Shown one piece after another: positions 43,121-61,164 of a stretch of DNA of 64,000 nucleotides (within the stretch, counting starts at the first letter, position 1; every line of letters begins with the position of its first letter). The DNA lies in the NCBI GenBank assembly GCA_021927905.1, contig BLLK01000029.1, forward strand, positions 992,001-1,056,000, read 5' to 3'. Both the position numbers and the translations under genes were made by a program. The stretch is from Chaetoceros tenuissimus (taxonomy: Eukaryota > Bacillariophyta > Thalassiosirophyceae > Chaetocerotales > Chaetocerotaceae). The notes beneath the pieces were generated by a model. That model was not told the origin of the DNA and ran no database searches. It saw nothing but the letters and a program-made list of their open reading frames with translations.

Positions 43121-43392
43121 TGATTAAATATTGGTGTGGCCCTGTTTTAGGTGCTATCGTAACACTGTCTAGGTTTGCTGTCTCCTGACTCTATATGGAT
43201 AGGCTTTAGCAGAGCGCATCATCACTTTCACTTCACATATAGGCTTCGGGTTCTTGATATCCCTTTTATTGCACCTTTTTGGTTGTTTTGGTGTATCTTA
43301 TAGTTTAGAATCTATCTAGTAATAACAAATGTGTTTTCACCTATTCGTAGCAATATCTTATTAGTTTACAAGTAAGTACAGGAATATTTAGC
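43121..43392 (+). repeat. Isolated Copia LTR, related to the LTR at 55,488
   Basis: Begins TGATTAAATATTG and ends AATATTTAG, with the shared core TTATAGTTTAGAATCTATCT and GTTTACAAGTAAGTAC. It is similar to, but longer and clearly diverged from, the 3' LTR at 55,488-55,731. No polypurine tract precedes it and no Copia body follows, so a solo or truncated LTR is likely. It abuts the truncated start of the next retroelement. Confidence 0.6.
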
Positions 43393-50797: not shown

Positions 50798-51058
50798 AAG
50801 CTGTTGTGTTGTTGACTATGAATTTAAAAAGAAACAACGTTGGAAAATGACTTGTGGCTGACTACAAAAATGCTATTGAAGTGTTGTAGAGACGTAGTGT
50901 AGAGTATCTCGGTCTTCTTAGATTAGTCTATGTAGATGTTTTAGAAGCGGGTTGTTTTTTTTTTAATGAGCTTTGCTCATTAATACCTTTCATGAATCTT
51001 ACATTATGCTTCTTCACCGCTTCTGCATACGAGGAACGTTTACTTTCAGCGATCCTCA
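50798..51058. other. Non-coding join between two Copia elements
   Basis: No gene. A perfect small palindrome AATGAGCTTTGCTCATT lies at 50,972-50,988 after a poly-T run. One or both flanking elements may contribute LTR remnants here but no border could be set. Confidence 0.35.
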
Positions 51059-52250
51059 ATGTCTGTGACGTCACCGACTCGTCAACCTTGTCGTCGTTAT
51101 TTTCCTTATTTCCAACGCACTAGCAATGAACAAATGATTTATGCCACTGCTTTGAACAGTCCTCAGTTTAATAATGATAGCAAAGAGGTCCACAACCTCA
51201 TCAAGGAGTTGGTTCAAAATACTGATGGAGACTCTTGGTTACTTCCAAGGTGTAGTTGTGGTAGAACAGCCATGCAATCATTGCGCAACCATTATGACGG
51301 ACCTGATCAGGCTGAGTCTAGGATCGATGTTGCTAGAGCTTCTATTGAGAAACTGTTCTACAGGAACGAGAATATGTTTTCTTTGGAGTCCTACTCAACT
51401 CAAATGAAGAAAAACTATGATGTACTTGAGAAGTACAACCAACTGGAGTATGAGGCTAACAAGATCGACACATTCTTGAAAGGGATCAGGAATGAAAATA
51501 ATAAGGTCGTCAATGTAGTCAGTATTGCCAAAACCATGGCAAACCTTAATACCTTCCAGTTGGTGCAAGAATTTATTAGTAATCAATTGAAGACTATCTT
51601 TCCTCCTCATGAGATCCAGCAAGGTGGTAAGAAAGGTGGTAGAAGAGGTGTAGCCGCTTCAAAGAAACAAAAGAAGAAAGCAACAAAACAGAGAGCTGCC
51701 CGTATTGCAAAGATTTCCATAAGTGGTAGGAAAGAGAATGGTGTCCAGCTCCAGGGTTATGCTCATTACTATTCCAACAAAGACTTCCACGCACTTACTC
51801 AAGATACCAGAAACACGATCCTGAAGGCTTGTAGAGATAACAATTGGGTCCCTGGTAATCGTAATAGGAATGTCGATGCAATTGCTACTGGTAGTAAAAA
51901 TGATGATGACATGTCTTCTGTTGGTCACTCTCTTGCTGGCCATACTATCACCATGGATGCTTCTGTCCTCAGAGGTGTAATGGCTGCCTCTGCATCTGCA
52001 ATTGATGAGCAGCAGCAGGCTACTCCTCCTTCAAATGGCTCTCATGCACGTTCTACTGCATCAACTGGAACAAAGAAATACAAGGTTACCTATGACGCTA
52101 ACAGGAATATGTCTCATGTAACTGAGTCTAGACTATCTCAGGCTATCCAAGTTGCCAAGAGGATCAGTTTGGGATGGACAGAAAGATCTGCTACTGGGCA
52201 CTTCAAGCCTAGCTTGGATGCCTACGACTATGGATTCAGAGACAAAGCAG
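51059..52250 (+). pseudogene. Copia Gag region
   Basis: Begins inside the Gag body (LIKELVQNTDGDSW, AMQSLRNHYDGPDQAESRI), the most recognisable CoDi Gag block. It passes through a Lys/Gly-rich segment (KKGGRRGVAASKKQKKKATK) in place of a zinc knuckle, then DFHALTQDTRNTILKACRDN and a Ser/Ala-rich tail. The frame continues past Gag into unrelated-frame sequence. Fossil. Confidence 0.65.
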
Positions 52251-55487: not shown

Positions 55488-55731
55488 TGATTAAATATTG
55501 CTGTTTAAGTGCTATGGTAACGCTGTATTGGTTAGAGCAAAGGTCTGTCTCCTGACTTAATATGGATAGGCACATATAGGCTTCTGGTTCTCAATATCTT
55601 TGTTTTTGCACCTTTTTGATTGTTCTGGTGCATCTTATAGTTTAGAATCTATCTAGTAATAACAAGTGTGTTTTCACCTACTCATAGCGATATCTTATTA
55701 GTTTACAAGTAAGTACACAAATATTTAGTCA
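55488..55731 (+). repeat. 3' LTR of the chromo-like Copia element
   Basis: 244 bases, TGATTAAATATT ... AATATTTAGTCA; the two ends are inverted complements over most of 12 bases. Related to the isolated LTR at 43,121-43,392. No matching 5' LTR is adjacent to the Gag end. Confidence 0.7.
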
Positions 55732-59962: not shown

Positions 59963-60352
59963 TTTTTTCTATTTATTATTATTACTCTCAACAACGTTCT
60001 TTTGCCCAGATCAACCTTCCAAATTTCAATTCATCTAGCAGAAAGAATGAGTGTTTTGCTAGTCCTTGTGGTGCTTCACTTCTTGTTTGTTTTGGTTCAC
60101 AGCCATCGGACGGCTGTGAACTCTTCGCTGCTTCTCCTTCTTTCCTTCCCATTTCTATCTTCTACCTCTCTGCGAGAGATGATCTCATCTCCATTTTTAT
60201 CCCTGTAGGGTCTGTACAAATGGAATCATTACCTGATTGGAGATAATGTAGATAGTGGAGATGGTTGCTGGGAAAGACCCTTTTAGCCTTTGTGGAGGAC
60301 CTGAACCATAACGTGATTATGACGTCAGGATGAGGTTTACATGCGTACTTGT
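59963..60352. other. Upstream region of the minus-strand gene, no feature
   Basis: AT- and CT-rich 5' flank without a clear frame. An inverted pair GCCATCGGACGGC-like sits near 60,100-60,115. Ends at the TRIM insertion. Confidence 0.35.
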
Positions 60353-60496
60353 TGTTGATGTGCGCGCCACGCGCACTCATCTTTCCAGGAGAAGCATCGC
60401 ATTTCCACCAGATAATCATCACTCGCATAGCTCATAATATTATCTAGTTCCCTTTTTGCACATCTTGTTCACACTACCGTAGTTACTGTTTCAGCA
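60353..60496 (+). repeat. TRIM LTR 1
   Basis: 144 bases, TG...CA. It contains a perfect short hairpin TGCGCGCCACGCGCA (60,359-60,373) and the 13-mer TATTATCTAGTTC (60,438-60,450), which can pair with the priming site just past the LTR. Confidence 0.85.
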
Positions 60497-60509
60497 GAAC
60501 TAGATAATA
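60497..60509 (+). promoter_or_regulatory. Self-complementary primer-binding site of the TRIM
   Basis: GAACTAGATAATA begins at the first base after LTR1 and is the perfect reverse complement of LTR positions 60,438-60,450. Self-priming of this type is known from the Tf1 group, where the transcript's 5' end pairs with the site. It would imply a transcript start near 60,438. No tRNA complement was recognised. Confidence 0.65.
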
Positions 60510-60874
60510 ATTGTGGGACAGTTATTACTTGTAGACGAGTTGTTGCTAGATTAGGTAGCGCCTATCGTTGAGAAGATTGGTACAGATATATGTTATCCAG
60601 TCCTCAGTCCGACAACTGAAACCCCTTCACTACTCTAGAAGTCTTGACCACATCCAGCACCGGCACCAGACCCTCTGCTCGAGTTCCTAAACAGCTTCTA
60701 GTCCGAACCTCTCTATACATGCAGCATCAGCTCCTAGGGTGAATTGATTCAGACCAATTTGCACCAGTTCCTAGGGTGGAGGTTACCGTGGTTCTCACTC
60801 TGTTCATCCCTGACATTTTTGATTTTTTATGGCTCGCAGCACCATAGCCATATACCGCTTCTCGTGCTAGGGTG

Positions 60875-61018
60875 TGTTGATGTGCGCGCCACGCGCACTC
60901 ATCTTTCCACGAGAAGCATCGCATTTCCACCAGATAATCATCACTCGCATAGCTCATAATATTATCTAGTTCCCTTTTTGCACATCTTGTTCACACTACC
61001 GTAGTTACTGTTTCAGCA
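60875..61018 (+). repeat. TRIM LTR 2
   Basis: 144 bases, one difference from LTR1 (CCACGAG against CCAGGAG). Followed directly by the target duplication CTTGT. Any promoter in it would point towards the gene at 61,165. Confidence 0.85.
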
Positions 61019-61164
61019 CTTGTATCTTACAGACCTCTGGATGCAAGTACAAGAAAGAATCATTCCACATCTACGTACATACCAAGTATTTCTATCACTC
61101 AGCTATTTCAGCATCACTTGCACAGCTATACCTATTTCATATTTTCTTTTATTCATTTTAAAAA

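Follow-up and report, generated by a model that had tools for sequence, protein, structure and literature searches.

We conclude that a TRIM in the diatom Chaetoceros tenuissimus, found in a 64,000-nucleotide stretch of DNA from contig C21 (here called the window), is probably a self-priming element which, to judge from its sequence, would be mobilised by self-priming Ty1/copia elements and not by members of the Tf1 (Ty3) group. The complementarity between the priming site and the LTR, the position of this complementarity and its conservation through paired changes in coding families are directly observed.

The TRIM comprises 666 bases (60353-61018 of the window); the interval 60348-61023 adds both copies of the target site duplication CTTGT, at 60348..60352 on the left and at 61019..61023 on the right. 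The LTRs (60353..60496, reading TGTTGATG...TTTCAGCA, and 60875..61018, both on the plus strand) are 144 nt each, have TG/CA ends and are 99.3% identical, with one difference. The tract GCTAGGGTG, which adjoins the 3' LTR (60866..60874, plus strand), was assigned by position as the probable plus-strand priming tract. Sequence comparison thus bore out the structure described in an earlier sequence-only reading of this DNA (666 bases, 144-base LTRs with one difference, CTTGT). The longest ORF inside the element has 76 codons, and none reaches retrotransposon size. When the genome (41.03 Mb, 68 contigs) was searched with the element, at least 10 matches were found, i.e., two full copies, four solo LTRs and four relics. 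The second full copy (C16:680673-681345) is 95% identical and has the target duplication GGACC, and the four solo LTRs have the duplications TAGAA, TATGC, GGGAG and TCCAC. As 5-bp target duplications are present at all six insertions with both ends (the two full copies and the four solo LTRs), these data indicate that the TRIM moved as an LTR element.

Three further features of the family were observed. A GC-rich inverted repeat, GTGCGCG-CCA-CGCGCAC, lies near the LTR start (60360-60376) and is kept in 7 of the 8 aligned complete TRIM LTRs, being changed in L007. The interior contains three copies of a repeat ending in CTAGGGTG (60724-60741, 60761-60778 and 60857-60874), the last of which adjoins the 3' LTR. 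In two of the relics, L003 (C29:358702) and L004 (C21:1105184), the TRIM interior immediately adjoins an LTR end that belongs to another family (family X), and this junction was probably duplicated, as the flanks are common to both. The different-looking 5' LTR of these relics is that family X LTR end, and we rejected the idea of a chimeric TRIM; the stretches upstream, beside neighbouring X LTRs (L066, L067), contained no TRIM sequence.

The predicted priming site, GAACTAGATAATA (60497..60509, plus strand), adjoins the 5' LTR without a gap (offset 0) and is complementary at 13 of 13 bases to LTR bases 86-98, i.e., to the candidate self-primer arm TATTATCTAGTTC (60438..60450, plus strand), which is followed by CC; it is equally complementary (13/13) to the 3' LTR copy of the arm at 60960-60972. 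The sequence-only reading had claimed a 13-base site that is the exact complement of a segment of the element's own LTR, and this claim was confirmed. The possibility that the match arose by chance in an A+T-rich element has to be considered, as 10 of the 13 bases of the site are A or T, but a complementary prefix of at least 13 bases occurred in only 1 of 20,000 dinucleotide shuffles and the same arrangement recurs in coding families (see below), and we regard chance as an almost negligible explanation. A rougher background estimate came from 63,836 positions of the window, 7 of which had a complement of at least 13 bases inside the preceding 144 nt; the TRIM itself is one of the seven. Complementary stretches of 10-16 nt were also found in fetched DNA far from any LTR boundary; length alone is therefore weak evidence, and it is the exact position that carries weight. 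The 13-mer TATTATCTAGTTC occurs nine times in the 41 Mb genome, each time (9/9) within the TRIM family. The pairing, 13/13, is present in both full copies; as both arms are identical between these copies, paired changes cannot show within the TRIM family. Relics of the family provide no test of the pairing, as arm and site survive together in none of them: the site is missing from L017, the arm is altered both in L003, where of the LTRs only the 3' one is left, and in the solo LTR L008, and neither L004 nor L018 has an arm-and-site pair.

Since the LTR end fixes the position of the primer and no tRNA-type TGG is present there, the sequence is at odds with ordinary priming by a tRNA 3' end. At least 63 tRNA genes were listed with RF00005, and 20 of these (none from C67 or C68, which are rich in tRNA genes and organellar-looking) were compared with the site. 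Among these 20 of 63 listed genes, the best uninterrupted match was 7 nt and the next best 5; the 7-nt match falls in the 5' half of a tRNA-Val, not in a 3' end. A 10-nt match at L081 was rejected because it sits in the flank, outside the tRNA. A tRNA whose 3' end matches the site better than the LTR does, which the sequence-only reading had named as evidence against self-priming, was found neither among the 20 of 63 listed genes compared nor in the whole-genome search with the 13-mer. The absence of a TGG start, the absence of a match longer than 7 nt among these genes and the absence of the 13-mer elsewhere in the genome together indicate that the element is TRIM-like in size, structure and mobility but has a different primer: it has two LTRs of 100-250 nt, is shorter than 1 kb, is non-coding, has target duplications and is present in several copies, as TRIMs are, and lacks the tRNA-complementary priming site of the strict definition.

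One alternative is that a fragment of a tRNA, or of another host RNA, primes at the site and that the match to the LTR is incidental. Half-tRNA priming probably exists in this genome, as other copia families have a site of the type GTTTATCA... that fits (by eye) the anticodon arm of tRNA-Ile. This alternative nevertheless seems highly unlikely for the TRIM, given that the 13-mer is absent outside the TRIM family in 41 Mb, that the best match was 7 nt among the 20 of 63 listed tRNA genes, that the LTR match starts exactly at the first base of the site, and that the pattern is repeated with different sequences in five coding families.

The elements with the tRNA-Ile-type site form a second copia-like set (L062, L064, L065, L101 and L124), in which the common site GTTTATCA is followed by a near-constant stretch. 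In the fit of its complement to the anticodon arm of tRNA-Ile (L072), judged by eye, a C stands opposite the base that becomes inosine; plant Bianca elements are likewise described, in the accessible part of the source, with a C opposite the base that becomes inosine (PMC6317226). Shortly into the leader of four of these stretches (L062:266, L064:252, L065:271 and L124:503), the motif TCGCTATGAA(T) is complementary over 10-11 nt to a segment that lies within the LTR or close to it, about 70-90 nt upstream. The resulting stem brackets the site and is not placed at the boundary.

Coding elements were located through integrase and reverse-transcriptase matches, and their 5' ends were fetched. Sampling covered 30 RVT_2 loci out of 133 RVT_2 matches, many of them picked for their likeness to the first family recognised here as F1. 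Five Ty1/copia (RVT_2) families, F1 to F5, were found to have a 14-nt boundary site of family-specific sequence that is perfectly complementary (14/14) to their own 5' LTR: F1 with site TGGTTTCTATTTAA (seven loci with seven different flanks), F2 with TTGTTTCTATTGAA (two loci, two flanks), F3 with TTGTTTCTTTTTAA (one locus), F4 with TTAGATTAAACGAA (one locus) and F5 with TTAGGCTTAAAGAA (two loci with a common flank, i.e., one duplicated insertion). Perfect pairs were thus present at 13 of the 30 sampled loci (five sequences, 12 insertions), which is not a frequency, as many of these loci were chosen for resembling F1; the pair was always between the site and the 5' LTR (13/13). Of the remaining loci, two had a GTTTATCA-type site and one had TATGGTTGCTGACC, while for 14 the boundary was not located and these were not counted as negatives. 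F1 is an abundant copia family with frames of approx. 1736 codons, and the sites of F1-F5 all lie upstream of Pfam RVT_2 (copia) matches, by about 3.9 kb for F1.

After F1, 19 further copia stretches were examined, 10 of which had a perfect pair at the expected position, i.e., six more F1 copies (14 nt) and L114, L127, L125 and L122, which have other sequences and pair over 15 nt, the first of these being the last LTR base. The stretch L123 contained only an LTR end and the site TTAGGCTTAAAGAA at its margin; the F5 arm TTCTTTAAGCCTAA was predicted from this site to lie about 117 nt upstream and was then found in DNA fetched blind, both at the L123 locus and at its duplicate with the same flank. 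That the site lies at the LTR boundary was verified by comparison with a 3' LTR of the same element for F1, F2 (both loci) and F5, and the boundary of F4 was set by alignment with sister LTRs. In all five families TCA directly precedes the arm and YCC directly follows it. All four target duplications that were read are 5 bp long (GAGTC for F1, TCTCC and GTATC for F2, AACTC for F5).

The downstream LTRs of these families are less uniform. That of F4 (L132) shares only 80% identity with the 5' LTR and has an arm that fails to match the site, which gives the F4 locus a mosaic look; the 3' LTR of F5 has lost the arm through a deletion, and that of F3 is incomplete in the fetched stretch L131. An old relative of F3 lies in the window itself (50838..51123, minus strand) as one LTR, 89% identical, whose arm-site pair is no longer perfect. 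The window also contains, around copia-like remains, a diverged pair of repeats (43121-43391 and 55488-55728; 71-90% identical, approx. 12 kb apart), which is probably an old nested copia element.

Comparison of the five families revealed paired changes. Each of F1, F2 and F3 differs from the other two at 2 of 14 pairs, and a change in the arm is always matched in the site. Between F4 and F5, 4 of 14 arm positions and 4 of 14 site positions differ, all of them compensated, and F4 and F5 differ from F1-F3 at 7 or 9 of 14 positions, again with each arm change matched in the site. The F4 and F5 sister LTRs are alignable (122 of 171 aligned columns identical in U3 and 103 of 118 in R-U5), which indicates that the changes in arm and site went together among related elements. 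The five sites can be matched with the five arms in 120 ways, which are few for such a test; only the true one gave 70 of 70 paired bases, the next best giving 66. The sequence-only reading had proposed to look for conservation of the pairing through paired changes; the coding copia families F1-F5 showed such changes, while the two full TRIM copies are too alike to show any. Overall, the paired changes seen over F1-F5, all of them coding copia families, argue strongly at the sequence level for self-priming beyond the Tf1 group.

A different reading of the complementarity is that it forms an RNA structure, with a function in packaging, dimer formation or translation control, and that another primer is used. 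Duplex prediction gave a stem flanking the priming site on both sides, formed by a U5 half (60474..60493, plus strand) and a leader half (60514..60534, plus strand). This duplex between U5 end and leader reached -18.4 kcal/mol in the TRIM of the window (12 of 1000 shuffles as good) and -20.8 kcal/mol in the second full copy (1 of 1000), so that a strong stem brackets the site in both full copies. A similar U5-IR stem is reportedly required in Tf1. Moreover, folding did not always favor the arm-site duplex: the pairing probability per base pair was up to 0.76 and 0.95 for the two TRIM copies in 103-nt folds but fell to approx. 0.5 and 0.05 when 437-440 nt were folded. The 103-nt TRIM RNA was no more stable than its shuffles (z -0.40). 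As the outcome varies with the length folded, we rejected folding as proof of the pairing. Against a purely structural role, the site starts immediately behind the LTR, at the place where a primer has to anneal, its length is fixed at 14 nt in the five coding families, and no U5-leader stem stood out from shuffles in these families (136 to 579 of 1000 shuffles were equally good for F1, F1b, F2, F3, F4 and F5). We therefore consider a structural role with another primer unlikely, though less so than priming by a host RNA.

Under self-priming, the transcript would start within the 5' LTR, at 60438 or a little upstream of it; TCA stands 5' of the TRIM arm at 60432..60434 (plus strand), and the coding copia families, in which the arm directly follows TCA, point to a start near 60434-60438. 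The RNA would thus begin with or near the arm TATTATCTAGTTC. By analogy with Tf1, it would then fold back so that the arm pairs with the 13-nt site adjoining the LTR, RNase H of the helper would cut after the arm, and the released piece would prime the minus strand. The plus strand would copy the primer, and the site of each new copy would in this way be made from the arm; such copying in each round would explain perfect pairs despite sequence drift. The paired changes offer a testable explanation for why primer and site continue to match. The enzymes would come from a coding element, and a TRIM with its own primer could do without a tRNA and would depend on this helper for nothing but packaging, reverse transcriptase and integrase.

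The best candidates for the helper would be the Ty1/copia families F1-F5, as they have the same anatomy, LTRs that mostly start with TGTTG, and 5-bp target duplications where these were read. The TRIM and F1-F5 have in common a site at offset 0, TCA near the arm and CC after it. TGTTG starts the LTRs of the TRIM, F2, F4 and F5, with CGTTG in F1 and TGTTG at the start or one base in for F3; target duplications are 5 bp long in the TRIM as well as in F1, F2 and F5. On the other hand, TCA lies 3 nt before the arm in the TRIM and directly adjoins it in F1-F5, the TRIM arm is followed by CCT and not by YCC, and the gap from arm to site is 46 nt in the TRIM as compared to 113-119 nt in five copia reference copies. 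The LTR sequence of the TRIM differs from those of the copia families, and its probable plus-strand priming tract is GCTAGGGTG as compared to AGGAGCG or AGGAGTG in F2-F5. Searches with the element, the LTR, the 13-mer and a 22-mer (up to 3 mismatches) for a coding element with the LTR or the site of the TRIM yielded only family members, apart from one 3-mismatch site at C17 without LTR context. The coding element with the same LTR ends and priming site that the sequence-only reading had proposed to look for was thus not found in the assembly, and since these searches revealed no coding element with the LTR sequence or the exact site of the TRIM, we infer its partner.

That reading had also hinted at a partner from the Tf1 group. 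Its proposal of self-priming is well supported by the data, but the Tf1-group partner is not: the coding elements that proved self-complementary belong to Ty1/copia and have an RVT_2 polymerase (F1-F5), not the Ty3-type (chromovirus) polymerase of Tf1/sushi elements, and four Ty3 families carry palindromes instead. A reading that we consider less likely than the copia families as helpers, but by no means remote, is that self-priming is right and the helper is another element, e.g., a Ty3 family or an unsampled copia family. Besides the failure to find in the assembly any coding element that has the LTR or the site of the TRIM, this alternative is favored by the 14 of 30 sampled RVT_2 loci without a located LTR boundary and by three Ty3 families that also make 5-bp target duplications (TCTAG, TATAT and GGATA). 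However, the boundary was located in four Ty3 families, and in no case did it have a complement of at least 10 nt to the family's own LTR, and the LTR start TGTTG together with the self-priming anatomy points to the copia families. With these as the preferred helpers, the search for the partner of an orphan non-coding TRIM is narrowed to one group of coding copia families.

In place of a tRNA-type site, the Ty3 families have a perfect palindrome one base after the 5' LTR, at all four located boundaries; a fifth family, whose boundary was not located, is outside this count. The palindromes are all different, i.e., L059:1567-1578 (C16), L088:617-628 (C29) and L092:792-803 (C32) with 12 nt each and L089:782-791 (C59) with 10 nt. 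A shorter palindrome at the same place is described for fungal GalEa copia elements (PMC5445492). It is tempting to speculate, and we do so tentatively, that several groups of LTR elements in this protist left whole-tRNA priming: a copia set and its miniature parasite would self-prime, their arms and sites changing together, whereas the Ty3 palindromes could let two packaged RNAs pair, one priming on the other.

Among known systems, TRIMs of plants, ants and bivalves are described as non-autonomous elements shorter than 1 kb with LTRs of 100-250 nt (PMC6934838), and the TRIM studied here is like them in size, LTR length and non-autonomy. In the available text of that account, TRIMs have a tRNA-complementary starting site, which the element studied here lacks, and for the bivalve TRIMs no clear priming mechanism is proposed (PMC6934838); the same paper, the one TRIM paper found to discuss self-priming, reports no clear mechanism. 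A literature search that covered papers open without subscription, without their supplements, found no published self-priming diatom LTR element or self-priming TRIM. Diatom copia elements (CoDi) have short LTRs of 153-844 nt, mostly with TG/CA ends, and the main text of their account, in which the word "tRNA" is absent, names no priming mode (PMC2806351, seen in part); they resemble F1-F5 as copia elements, a likeness by description only.

Self-priming is established for Tf1, in which 11 nt are used and RNase H cuts between bases 11 and 12, and in the Tf1/sushi group (Tf1, Tf2, Tj1, Maggy and others) the site is complementary to the 5' end of the mRNA (PMC7175516, PMC4600332, both as far as their accessible text goes). 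These are coding Ty3/gypsy elements, in contrast to the self-complementary coding elements found here, which are Ty1/copia. For the plant Ty1/copia TAR lineage (Houba, Osr-1), self-priming is predicted from a site beside the 5' LTR that is complementary to the element's own LTR (Neumann et al. 2019, PMC6317226); self-priming in copia elements is thus not new in itself. By the rule given there, which asks for a complement of 10 nt or more whose start lies 0-5 nt from the LTR (PMC6317226), both the TRIM (13 nt, offset 0) and F1-F5 (14 nt, offset 0) are classed as self-priming. The TAR elements are like F1-F5 in being copia elements with a site complementary to their own LTR, a likeness by anatomy alone, and differ from the TRIM in being coding elements of plants, with no miniature element in the portion of the account seen (PMC6317226).
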